Source of the DNA: Thermococcus eurythermalis
GTDB lineage: Archaea; Methanobacteriota_B; Thermococci; Thermococcales; Thermococcaceae
NCBI RefSeq assembly: GCF_000769655.1
Contig: NZ_CP008887.1
Span: forward strand, 1,674,001 to 1,738,000
Reading direction: 5' to 3'
Length of the DNA stretch: 64,000 nucleotides
This document shows positions 23,086 through 47,978 of this stretch, one piece after another (the first letter of the stretch is position 1; each line of letters starts with the position of its first letter). The notes under the pieces are model-generated. The model was not told the origin of the DNA. It saw only the letters and a program-made list of their open reading frames with translations, and searched no databases. The position numbers were made by a program, and so were the translations under genes.

Positions 23086-23883
23086 ATGAAGACGTATCAA
23101 GTCCTCATAGAGAGCGCCCTGAAGATAGCTGAGAAGCTCGGCGCCAAGGCACTCGTGATAATGAAGGAGATAGAAGAGGACAAAATACCTGAAACAGACC
23201 TGTCAATCATTATCGTCGGCTCCTCCTTCGACGTCGAGGACGAGAAAATCAAGAGGGTCTCCGTCCCCCAGAACCTCGACCTGAACAACGTGCTCAACCT
23301 GATTTCAGCGTTTCTCATAGAGCAGGACATCGTAAAAGAGGGGGACTCATTTGTCTACGTTACGGAGGACGCGATAGGCATCAAGACGGTCAAAAAGGGA
23401 ATTCTGGCAATGAAGAGCTTTTTTGCCCAGAACCAGAACGTCCTGCAGAGAATGCTGGAGATTGCAATCGAACTCAGCATCGAGGGCAGGGAAGGGAACC
23501 CCGTGGGGACGATATTCGTCATCGGGGACACGAGGAGAGTCCTGAAGCACTCCCACCAGCTGATTCCAAACCCGTTCAAAGGGCATAAAATAAACGTCAT
23601 GGACAGGGACAGCAAGGAGATAATAAAGGAGTTTGCCCAGCTCGACGGGGCCTTCATCATAAAAGAGGACGGGAGAATTGTTGCGGCCGGAAGGTATCTG
23701 GAAGTTGAGCCGAAGGTAATCGACCTCATGCTGCCCCCCGGCCTTGGGAGCAGACACATAGCGGCCGCGGGAATAACAAAGCTCACAAAGGCGATGGCGA
23801 TAAGCCTCTCCGAAAGCGGGACGATAAGGATTTTCAAGAACGGGCTCATGCTGCTGGAGTACAACCCTAGGCTAAAATATTAA
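23086..23883 (+). CDS. dacZ: Diadenylate cyclase DacZ
   Basis: A 265-residue archaeal c-di-AMP synthase. The C-terminal DAC domain has the catalytic DGAF (in LDGAFIIKEDG) and the RHR-like motif GLGSRHIAAAGITK; the N-terminal 110 residues form the alpha/beta domain typical of DacZ. c-di-AMP is an essential osmotic signal in studied euryarchaea. It has its own promoter, CTTTTTATAC about 30 bases before ATG, and is divergent from ubiX and convergent with pyruvate kinase. Confidence 0.9.
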   Translation: MKTYQVLIESALKIAEKLGAKALVIMKEIEEDKIPETDLSIIIVGSSFDVEDEKIKRVSVPQNLDLNNVLNLISAFLIEQDIVKEGDSFVYVTEDAIGIKTVKKGILAMKSFFAQNQNVLQRMLEIAIELSIEGREGNPVGTIFVIGDTRRVLKHSHQLIPNPFKGHKINVMDRDSKEIIKEFAQLDGAFIIKEDGRIVAAGRYLEVEPKVIDLMLPPGLGSRHIAAAGITKLTKAMAISLSESGTIRIFKNGLMLLEYNPRLKY

Positions 23884-25448: not shown

Positions 25449-26159
25449 TCAAAGCTTTCGAGGCTCAAAAGAAAAAGTCAAACTCTCCCTGAGCTTTTTC
25501 ATGCACGAGCCGCAGAAGAACGCCGGCCGGGTGTCCCACAGGGCCATCGTGCCGGGGGAATTCATAACGCAGTAGCCGGAGCAGTGTTCAAGACCAAAGG
25601 CGTGGCCGACCTCGTGAAGGATACCCTTGAGCAGGCGCATCTTGAACGTTTCAAGCTCGCGGGAGAGGACGCGCCTCGCAAGGCGCTTGACGTCTTCATC
25701 AACGTGAGGGCTCTCAAGGGCACGCAGAGCCATCTTGAGGGCATCGGACTCGAAGGGCTTCATGGATAGCACCATTATCTTCCTGCCGAGTCTCTCGGTC
25801 TCGAACCCCAGAAAGCTTTCGTAGAAGTCCAGATACGGGTTTCGTGATGCGAGAGGGAAGCTTATCAGGCCGAGTATCTTGTTCATAACAAAGCCATTGT
25901 CCTTCTCCATCTCGACCTTGAGCCTGTAGTCGAGGAAGTCAATGAGAACTTCGAGGGGATAGAGCCTCACGGTCTCCTCTGGGGTCTTTACGCTGATAAG
26001 GTAGCCCGGCTCAAGAGTAAGGCTGTCGAGGTAGAGAAACCGTACTCCCAAGTCCCAGTCCCTGAGAAGTCTGTTGGCCTCGTCAACTACTTCGAACATA
26101 GCTTCCTTTAGGGTGTTTTCAAGGAAATTAGTGACGTATGTGAAGCCTATGAACTCCAT
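25449..26159 (-). CDS. amzA: Archaemetzincin metalloprotease
   Basis: A 236-residue zinc protease. The extended motif HEVGHAFGLEHCSGYCVMNSP begins near residue 182 (HExxHxxGxxHC, then C and the Met-turn) and is followed by FFCGSCMKKL, the extra CxxC zinc site that defines archaemetzincins. Natural substrates are unknown. Its promoter region (GCTTATAAATTCC on this strand) is divergent from the fluoride riboswitch promoter. Confidence 0.92.
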   Translation of the reverse strand: MEFIGFTYVTNFLENTLKEAMFEVVDEANRLLRDWDLGVRFLYLDSLTLEPGYLISVKTPEETVRLYPLEVLIDFLDYRLKVEMEKDNGFVMNKILGLISFPLASRNPYLDFYESFLGFETERLGRKIMVLSMKPFESDALKMALRALESPHVDEDVKRLARRVLSRELETFKMRLLKGILHEVGHAFGLEHCSGYCVMNSPGTMALWDTRPAFFCGSCMKKLRESLTFSFEPRKL

Positions 26160-26228: not shown

Positions 26229-26237
26229 TTTTTAAAT
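26229..26237 (+). promoter_or_regulatory. TATA box of the fluoride riboswitch transcript
   Basis: TTTTTAAAT centred at 26233. The archaeal spacing of about 25 bases puts the transcription start at about 26258, exactly where the aptamer begins (GGGCGATGG from 26259). That agreement supports both calls. Confidence 0.65.
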
Positions 26238-26258
26238 CCCTTCCCAAAATGGAGCCCT

Positions 26259-26318
26259 GGGCGATGGCGTCCGCCCGGGGCTTCGAGCCCGAACCGCCCG
26301 AAAGGGCTGATGACGCCT
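26259..26318 (+). ncRNA. Fluoride riboswitch (crcB RNA)
   Basis: The stretch fits the fluoride aptamer closely. Hairpin 1 is GGGCG (26259-26263) with CGCCC (26272-26276). Hairpin 2 is GCCC-GAAA-GGGC (26296-26306) preceded by GAACC and followed by the conserved CTGATG. The pseudoknot is GGCGTC (26266-26271) with GACGCC (26312-26317), a perfect six pairs. It differs from the well-known bacterial aptamer by an inserted hairpin GGGC-TTCGA-GCCC (26278-26290) between hairpins 1 and 2. The downstream stretch CTCCGCTAAAAGC (26322-26334) can pair with the GGGAGG ribosome site at 26337-26342, so control of translation is likely. The next gene but one is crcB, the fluoride exporter. Confidence 0.9.
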
Positions 26319-26349
26319 GTTCTCCGCTAAAAGCTTGGGAGGCGGTAGA

Positions 26350-27216
26350 ATGGGCTCGAAGCTTCGCAGACTTGGACGTTACGTTAACGTCAATGCCGTC
26401 TTACGCTACGTTGAGGAGAGACGGCACGAGGACGGTGGGTACTGCTTCGTGAGCGTACTCAGTGACACCAACGTGAACGACACCTACTACGCGGTCAAAA
26501 TCTACAAGCTCCTCGGTCTAGAGTTCCCCAAACCTGAGAAAACGATTGAGTTCCTGGCCAGCGCAATTCAGCCGCAGACGGCCGTGGTTGCGATAGCGAT
26601 GGCCCTCGAAGGCCTCGCCCTGCTTGGGGCAAAGGACACAGCGAGGGAGAAGACTGAGATAGTCTTCACCAAGTACAATCCTTCAGAAGGCAAGTTCGCC
26701 GTTGGGCTGGGTGGAAGCGAGGAGTTCGGGACGGCAACGCCCCTCGAAGCCACCTACTGGGTCACTAAGGCTTTTGATGCAGTTGGCTTGAAGTTCAACC
26801 CAGATGAGAGAGATGCCATAAGGGAGTTCGTGATGAAGTTCCGCAACGGAAACGGCTACGGCGTCAAGCAACCAACGACGACGATGACATACCAGGCGCT
26901 CTTCACCCTCTATATCCTCGGCTACCGGCCGCCCAAGAGCCCACACTTCAGGAACTGCGAGCTCTGCGGTGACTGGGGCGGCTTCACCGAGGTGCCCTAC
27001 AGCCTTCCCCCGTACCTTGAGCCAACCTTCTACGCTACAAGGGGACTGGAGCTTCAGGACGAAACGCCAACCTGCCCAAGAAGGCACGTCTGGTTCATAC
27101 GCCAGCTTTGGAACTCCAACGGCGGCTTCAGGAGGAGCCTTGAGCTCGGAATATCCAACTTTCAGAACACCTACCGCGCATTGGCAGTGGTTGACTTCAT
27201 GAGCAGGTTCGTGTGA
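26350..27216 (+). CDS. Prenyltransferase/squalene-oxidase-repeat-like protein under a fluoride riboswitch
   Basis: A 288-residue protein with repeated helix pairs and G-G-F/Y turns typical of the alpha/alpha toroid of protein prenyltransferase beta subunits and terpene cyclases: EDGGYCFV with NDTYYAVKIYKLLG near the start, EATYWVTKAFDAVGL in the middle, NGYGV, WGGF, and NSNGGFRRSLELG with NTYRALAVVDF at the end. A CELCGDWGGF segment and CPRRH could bind metal. No DxDD cyclase motif is seen. ATG 26350 has GGGAGG seven bases upstream, immediately after the aptamer. Its function in fluoride response is unknown; it may be a helical scaffold rather than an enzyme. Confidence 0.7.
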   Translation: MGSKLRRLGRYVNVNAVLRYVEERRHEDGGYCFVSVLSDTNVNDTYYAVKIYKLLGLEFPKPEKTIEFLASAIQPQTAVVAIAMALEGLALLGAKDTAREKTEIVFTKYNPSEGKFAVGLGGSEEFGTATPLEATYWVTKAFDAVGLKFNPDERDAIREFVMKFRNGNGYGVKQPTTTMTYQALFTLYILGYRPPKSPHFRNCELCGDWGGFTEVPYSLPPYLEPTFYATRGLELQDETPTCPRRHVWFIRQLWNSNGGFRRSLELGISNFQNTYRALAVVDFMSRFV

Positions 27217-27356
27217 GGAGAACTGCCCTACCCACTCAGGAGAAATAAGACCAAAGTAAAAACCCGCGATGAAACCCAAAAATTTAAATGTTCCATCTTC
27301 GCTGGAGATGAGAGTCTTCTCAAAAGAGCGAGATAAGCAAAAGGAGAGGTGAGACA

Positions 27357-28113
<757 letters not shown>

Positions 28114-46539: not shown

Positions 46540-47978
46540 GTTGCAATAAGACTCGAAGAGAATTGAAAGCTTTTCAGGAGCACGCCCCACACGCTGAGGA
46601 GCATTGCGTTGCAATAAGACTCGAAGAGAATTGAAAGTGGAAGCCTCGCGAAGGCTCTCGAAGACACGTACCAGGTTGCAATAAGACTCGAAGAGAATTG
46701 AAAGTCAGCGTGGTGAACGGCAGGTCGAGGAGCCTCGCCTCGTTGCAATAAGACTCGAAGAGAATTGAAAGAGGTTATGCTTTTGTTGTCAATTGTTGAC
46801 GAGTTTAAGGTTGCAATAAGACTCGAAGAGAATTGAAAGGGGCTTCGGCGACGACGTGGGCTTTTTGTCGAGGGCTGTTGCAATAAGACTCGAAGAGAAT
46901 TGAAAGAACTTTTGTTTAAGGTCCAGGTCGTGTATAAGCTCCTCGTTGCAATAAGACTCGAAGAGAATTGAAAGTCATGTGCAATCATATACGTAATAGA
47001 TAAATCTACCAGTTGCAATAAGACTCGAAGAGAATTGAAAGAATTGTTCGTGGCGTCGTAGGCCTGCACCCTTGGGAGTTGCAATAAGACTCGAAGAGAA
47101 TTGAAAGGTGGACATCTTTATGCTCGCGGCCCAGCACGACGAGGTTGCAATAAGACTCGAAGAGAATTGAAAGTGAACGGTGGGCCTGTCGTGGCGGGCG
47201 AAGTCCACGTAGGTTGCAATAAGACTCGAAGAGAATTGAAAGAGCGGTATCGCCTGCGTCATCACAATGTGCTTACGTGGTTGCAATAAGACTCGAAGAG
47301 AATTGAAAGTTCTGAGCTGGAAATACGGTGCTCCACGTAGCTAACTGTTGCAATAAGACTCGAAGAGAATTGAAAGCCTAAACGGGTTGTTGTCCTTCGC
47401 ATACGCCTCGTCGAGTTGCAATAAGACTCGAAGAGAATTGAAAGGTACTCACCCCATAAAATGAGGCAGAGGGCGGCGAGGTTGCAATAAGACTCGAAGA
47501 GAATTGAAAGCGCGTAGTTGTCACCTTTGTGGTTGTCGTGGTTGCCTGTTGCAATAAGACTCGAAGAGAATTGAAAGCTTACCTCCGCCGTTATACGCAC
47601 AGCCCGTCCGCTCTTGTTGCAATAAGACTCGAAGAGAATTGAAAGCCTTCATTCGATTACCTCCTGTGCCTCCTTTTTCAGGTTGCAATAAGACTCGAAG
47701 AGAATTGAAAGTTTGTAGTGAAACTTTACCATACTTCTTGATTACCAAGTTGCAATAAGACTCGAAGAGAATTGAAAGCAGCAAAAAATTTCAAAACCCG
47801 GAATAGGACATACCCGTTGCAATAAGACTCGAAGAGAATTGAAAGTAGTGTTTAATGTTTTCAAGAATTTCTTTTGCGAGTTGTTGCAATAAGACTCGAA
47901 GAGAATTGAAAGTTCAAGAGATTCTCAGCAACGCCGAACCGCCGAGGTGTTGCAATAAGACTCGAAGAGAATTGAAAT
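46540..47978 (+). CRISPR. CRISPR array, 22 repeats and 21 spacers
   Basis: Repeats are 30 bases, beginning GTTGCAATAAGACTCGAAGA and ending GAATTGAAAG. I read starts at 46540, 46608, 46675, 46742, 46810, 46877, 46945, 47012, 47078, 47144, 47213, 47280, 47347, 47415, 47481, 47548, 47616, 47682, 47749, 47816, 47883 and 47949. Spacers are 36-39 bases and all different. Only the last repeat is altered (final G to T), which marks the leader-distal end. The repeat is of the Thermococcales type used with type I and III systems and gives the GAAAG 5' handle. No cas gene lies in the window. Confidence 0.98.

Follow-up and report, generated by a model that had tools for sequence, protein, structure and literature searches.

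Which gene is served by the fluoride riboswitch that, in the 64,000-nt stretch of Thermococcus eurythermalis DNA analysed here (the window), stands in front of a gene coding for something other than an exporter? A corresponding arrangement was described in 2014 for T. kodakarensis, where an 86-nt crcB RNA was found "surprisingly" upstream of TK0513 and not of TK0514 (crcB), which has a separate transcription start; the leader RNA accumulated in growing, not in stationary cells (PMC4247193). The TK0513 locus shares with the window an orthologous riboswitch, an orthologous first gene, and a crcB gene lying behind it with its own start; the 2014 account called the location surprising and went no further. 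The passage of a 2021 article in which Speed et al. 2018 is cited describes a fluoride-responsive riboswitch of T. kodakarensis "presumably regulating the translation" of export genes, and according to the article it is the sole natural archaeal riboswitch that had been determined experimentally (PMC8241225). The association of the riboswitch with the first gene is thus already published for T. kodakarensis and is not new. In the literature searched, which did not cover Speed et al. 2018, the true target of the riboswitch has been an open point since 2014, and no joint account of fluoride, crcB and a prenyltransferase was found, and TK0513 turned up in a single paper. What is added here is the family-wide retention of the riboswitch with its first gene, a homologue of this gene in a fluoride locus outside the family, a testable anti-start expression platform, and a second class of riboswitch; retention, platform and second class were not found in the same literature, again with Speed et al. 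2018 not covered.

The Rfam covariance model RF01734 matched positions 26251–26326 of the plus strand with 48.5 bits (gathering score 34; E 2.1e-10), the model starting 8 bases 5' of position 26259, at which the first-pass annotation had let the element begin and which is the first base of P1. The P1 stem GGGCG/CGCCC (26259–26276, + strand; 26259–26263 paired with 26272–26276) carries the pseudoknot strand GGCGUC (26266–26271) in its loop. An extra hairpin, GGGCU-UCG-AGCCC (26278–26290, + strand), separates P1 from the P2 stem GCCC/GGGC (26296–26307, + strand; 26296–26299 paired with 26304–26307), which is closed by a GAAA loop. The CTGATG core (26307–26312) and the 3' pseudoknot strand GACGCC (26312–26317) together occupy 26307–26317 of the plus strand, and the pseudoknot comprises six Watson-Crick pairs between 26266–26271 and 26312–26317. 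P1, P2 and the loop–3' pseudoknot of RF01734 are all present; the two hairpins, the CTGATG motif and the six-pair pseudoknot claimed earlier are confirmed. The core, the pseudoknot and the GAUG are shared with the bacterial RF01734 riboswitches that precede crcB or eriC-F; unlike these, the window aptamer contains the extra P1–P2 hairpin as a putative anti-start strand, and its first gene does not code for an exporter. A terminator platform was not identified for the window riboswitch. In the whole genome of 2.1 Mb, one fluoride riboswitch and one CrcB were found.

A TATA-like box, TTTTTAAAT, is located at 26229–26237 (+ strand), and boxes in related leaders are similarly placed 5' of the aptamer. 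Transcription probably starts at about position 26258, close to the first base of P1, given that the RNA of the T. kodakarensis orthologue has 86 nt and the leader from P1 to ATG at that locus (L071) measures 85 nt; the annotated start of the aptamer at the predicted transcription start fits this 5' RNA. Divergent from the riboswitch, at 25449–26159 on the minus strand, lies a gene for an archaemetzincin-type peptidase (M54), and the pair is kept in most of the examined Thermococcus loci.

The first gene under the riboswitch (26350–27216, + strand) codes for a protein of 288 amino acids, the orthologue of TK0513. Its ATG at 26350 is conserved throughout the family; the mechanical list of open reading frames reaches further, to a TTG at 26335. 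The Shine-Dalgarno region GGGAGGCGGT is found at 26337–26346 (+ strand). After a gap of 140 bases, which holds the TATA-like sequence AAATTTAAAT (27280–27289, + strand) as probable crcB promoter, follows the gene of the CrcB (Fluc) fluoride exporter at 27357–27728 (+ strand), present as a single copy in the genome; the assignment to the CrcB/Fluc family rests on PF02537 (99.5 bits, cut-off 32.9; E 1.6e-28) and on a TIGR00494 score above cut-off. The placement of crcB behind the first gene with a TATA box of its own, as originally annotated, agrees with the Pfam match, the box in the gap and the published start of the orthologue TK0514. A gene for a PII-like DUF190 protein (27733–28113, + strand; PF02641, E 1.1e-38) comes next, and a DUF190 gene follows crcB in the examined loci where crcB is near the first gene.

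We consider it probable, at roughly 0.7, that the riboswitch is a fluoride-sensing translational ON switch targeting the first gene, and that the product of this gene acts in fluoride tolerance beside CrcB. The protein itself matched PF00432 (Prenyltrans) with 41.4 bits (cut-off 26.5; E 1.5e-10), consistent with the annotation of a protein resembling an alpha/alpha-toroid and not an exporter; NCBIfam has no model for it. Its AlphaFold2 model (pLDDT 90, pTM 0.90) retrieved squalene-hopene cyclase and the beta subunits of RabGGTase and FTase as best Foldseek matches (E 8e-6 to 1e-3), with TM scores by query mostly of 0.55–0.73 and identities of 11–19%. Model and matches identify the alpha/alpha-toroid fold, which the protein shares with protein prenyltransferase beta subunits and squalene-hopene cyclases. 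Unlike these enzymes, it lacks both the Asp-x-Cys zinc pair, which is absent from the window sequence and has no invariant counterpart among 47 members, and the DxDD motif of class II terpene and squalene cyclases, which occurs neither in the sequence nor among the conserved columns. The sites at which zinc ligands would be expected in the C-terminal repeats are presumably E224-P-T226 and Q272, positions assumed without a structural superposition. For want of these motifs, zinc prenyltransferase or terpene cyclase activity was rejected; the toroid protein belongs to neither enzyme group in its canonical form, and the label "prenyltransferase-fold" holds for the fold and fails as an enzyme class. 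The segment of lowest model confidence, residues 118–128, contains the invariant LGGSEEFG loop, which suggests that this loop may be a ligand-dependent lid. Intact family members share 62–91% identity with the window protein.

Among 94 Thermococcaceae genomes, the riboswitch was detected in 88, the toroid protein in 90 and CrcB in 82. Of 87 distinct leaders that were compared, 85 have the aptamer immediately 5' of the toroid gene, and the two are kept together in all six genera; riboswitch plus toroid gene is a trait of the family. In the Pyrococcus-type genome G012, an intact toroid gene follows a decayed leader in which GATGGCGCCTATTCT remains, and neither a riboswitch nor CrcB was detected; a remnant of the 3' half of the aptamer is seen upstream of the gene (L087, 2600–2663). 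Genome G080 has a broken toroid gene (L088, 2025–2620) and no riboswitch, and no surviving aptamer was found in the decayed leaders of these two genomes. In G076, a broken copy (G076:C1:165164–166007), possibly due to a sequencing error, retains the riboswitch.

That the toroid protein has a housekeeping function independent of fluoride, such as one in the metabolism of lipids or isoprenoids, and owes its induction to the inhibition of its pathway by fluoride, appears doubtful to us. Its near universality in the family and its persistence in G012 after loss of the recognizable aptamer and of crcB would fit such a function, and among the genes known to be under fluoride riboswitches are those of enolase, pyrophosphatase and formate hydrogen lyase; the canonical enzyme motifs of the fold are missing, however, and G080 and G076, with the reservation about sequencing stated for the latter, live with a broken copy. 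A role in fluoride tolerance is likely from the comparative evidence: it gains support from the riboswitch staying with the toroid gene in six genera, even where, as in Pyrococcus-type genomes, crcB is remote, and from a fluoride locus in another family that contains a distant homologue (see below). Co-location alone does not prove this role. The product would be soluble and would contribute to tolerance not by zinc-dependent prenyl transfer but through binding to, or modification of, some target.

How fluoride might reach the gene is suggested by complementarity between the aptamer and the start site. The segment GCUUCGAGCCC (26280–26290), part of the extra hairpin, is the exact reverse complement of 26352–26362 (+ strand), that is, of GGGCUCGAAGC, which comprises the G of the AUG and codons 2–5. 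Close by, ACCGCC (26293–26298, + strand), made up of the junction and the 5' strand of P2, is complementary to GGCGGU (26341–26346) of the Shine-Dalgarno region. Without fluoride, the extra hairpin and the 5' strand of P2 (GCUUCGAGCCC-GA-ACCGCC) would come apart and form a duplex with GGCGGU-AGAAU-GGGCUCGAAGC, hiding the Shine-Dalgarno sequence, some of the AUG and codons 2–5, so that the toroid gene would not be translated. Binding of Mg-fluoride would lock P1, P2, the hairpin between them and the pseudoknot, the anti-start strand would be held in the aptamer, and the start site would be free. The alternative fold, in which the aptamer strand pairs with the Shine-Dalgarno and start region to the exclusion of the ligand-bound fold, is predicted as well as conserved, and a translational ON switch is what this arrangement predicts. 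We infer both this mechanism and the role of the protein.

Folding of 26256–26374 without constraints gave a minimum free energy of −58.0 kcal/mol, corresponding to the OFF fold with both helices, as compared to −32.5 kcal/mol with the aptamer helices enforced, a value in which the energies of the pseudoknot and of fluoride are not counted. The 11-pair helix persisted in the minimum-energy fold at 85 °C, a temperature at which the folding parameters are poor. An 11-bp Watson-Crick helix was reached by 4 of 5000 shuffles and, among 55 start sites of the window, at one; the toroid gene had not been filtered out of these and is presumably the one concerned. Direct pairing of the pseudoknot strand with the Shine-Dalgarno sequence (CGCCU with AGGCG) amounts to five pairs only and was discarded as superfluous beside the longer helix.

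Conservation of the pairing extends into the coding sequence. A helix of at least 10 pairs is kept in 72 of 85 leaders, and in the 85 genes codon 2 is GGC for all 81 glycines, codon 3 is TCG for 78 of 82 serines, and codon 4 is AAG for all 78 lysines; with entropies of 1.2–2.0, 1.0–2.3 and 0.9–1.0 bits for the other conserved Gly, Ser and Lys codons of the toroid gene, respectively, codons 2–4 are the most uniform of all, a synonymous constraint at the target of the anti-start strand. Across 84 leaders, the codons are kept in 71 of 71 with intact pairing and changed in 7 of 13 with an altered or missing hairpin (Fisher p 4e-7, which overstates independence, the leaders being related); the remaining six altered leaders keep the codons. 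On a FastTree phylogeny, at least 5 codon changes and at least nine losses of the pairing are required. Double-sided covariation was not observed in the main 10-bp helix, the variants of which are all G-U-compatible.

It is unlikely, in our estimate, that the platform acts on transcription or RNA stability instead of translation, with the start-site complementarity arising incidentally from hairpin similarity. Since the extra hairpin comes close to a palindrome, it looks much like its own complement, and the 86-nt leader RNA of growing T. kodakarensis cells could reflect termination or processing. Against this reading stand the synonymous constraint on codons 2–4 and the fact that hairpin pairing and codons are lost together, and a second class of riboswitch follows the same logic via a different strand.

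This second class was found in 15 genomes of the family (L072–L086). It lacks the extra hairpin and precedes an operon with complex-I-like subunits (PF00146, PF00361, PF00346) of a membrane hydrogenase of the formate-hydrogenlyase type, which fits the known association of fluoride riboswitches with formate hydrogen lyase. In all 15 leaders, the 5' strand of P1 together with its loop (UUCCGGG..GGCGUC) can pair with GACGCC..CCCGGAA around the start codon, the start sites being of the GGAGGTGACGCC(N)TTG type. At L076, two outer pairs, U-A and U-A, are replaced by A-U and C-G, with changes on both sides and hence two compensatory changes. Pairing by the P1 strand suggests that the principle of setting an aptamer strand against the start site has been reused with a different strand.

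Outside the family, a profile of the toroid protein was run against 21 other genomes of the class and gave a single weak homologue, that of G099 (242 aligned columns, hhalign probability 96%); this protein also passes PF00432. It is encoded about 2 kb downstream of a fluoride riboswitch, which crcB, on the same strand, closely precedes. The case is a single one, yet it is independent of the Thermococcaceae operon. The order on the minus strand of this locus (L182) is crcB, riboswitch, a 570-amino-acid protein in which GTPase-like motifs were recognized by eye, an open reading frame of 101 amino acids, and the toroid protein. A scan of genome contigs for distant toroid homologues gave Thermococcales only. 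An extra aptamer hairpin is also present in other families of the class, and the idea that it is specific to Thermococcaceae was dropped. Candidate anti-start helices of the riboswitches of G110 and G111 have 10 pairs, three of them G-U in each case, and about 3% of shuffles equal them; that of G099 is no better than shuffles, and no such platform is claimed for these genomes.

Gene order behind the toroid gene varies within the Thermococcaceae. Genome G023 shows the order of the window. In part of genus g4, crcB begins 21–31 bases after the toroid gene and both are probably cotranscribed, which means that crcB is not transcribed separately in every genome. In many Thermococcus genomes, the two are separated by a DUF6062 gene and by a gene for about 140 amino acids that fits no known family, and in several a Na+/H+ exchanger gene lies there on the opposite strand. 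The DUF6062 gene, whose product has CxxC motifs, starts about 12 bases after the toroid gene (L104, L105, L116, L127 and others). These two genes, missing from the window, are likely further members of the riboswitch operon. The protein of about 140 amino acids has no Pfam match, and a likely counterpart follows the toroid gene in Pyrococcus-type genomes, too. In genus g3 (Pyrococcus by inference), crcB lies away from the toroid gene, which retains its riboswitch. Three crcB loci away from the toroid gene were scanned, and no riboswitch was detected at the two of Pyrococcus type (G004, G006) or at the one of Thermococcus (G019).

We regard it as quite improbable that crcB is the real target of the riboswitch, controlled through cotranscription or translational coupling, with the toroid gene as a passenger: crcB and DUF190 do come after the toroid gene in many genomes, crcB only 21–90 bases behind it in part of g4 and a few others, and in another family two related genomes have the riboswitch right in front of crcB or of what remains of it, G110 showing the usual order with crcB itself, but the Pyrococcus-type crcB loci are without a detected riboswitch while the toroid gene keeps one, the anti-start strand matches the start of the toroid gene, crcB has its own published start in T. 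kodakarensis (PMC4247193), and in G099 it lies upstream of the riboswitch.

The reading in which the switch targets the toroid gene turns the sequence evidence into a definite mechanism, open to mutation and testable by a handful of synonymous codon changes, and it points to a conserved toroid protein as the product of a gene made on meeting fluoride; if true, the known fluoride response would be widened beyond export. A more general proposal, which we put forward tentatively and at somewhat less than even odds, is that alpha/alpha-toroid proteins are a new type of export-independent effectors of fluoride tolerance in archaea and, at the same time, that archaeal fluoride riboswitches carry a start-site antisense within the aptamer, which arose at least twice with different strands.

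Elsewhere in the window, positions 23086–23883 contain the gene of a DacZ-type diadenylate cyclase (c-di-AMP synthase), and a CRISPR array of 22 repeats, matched to CRISPR-DR6 of Rfam, extends from 46540 to 47978.
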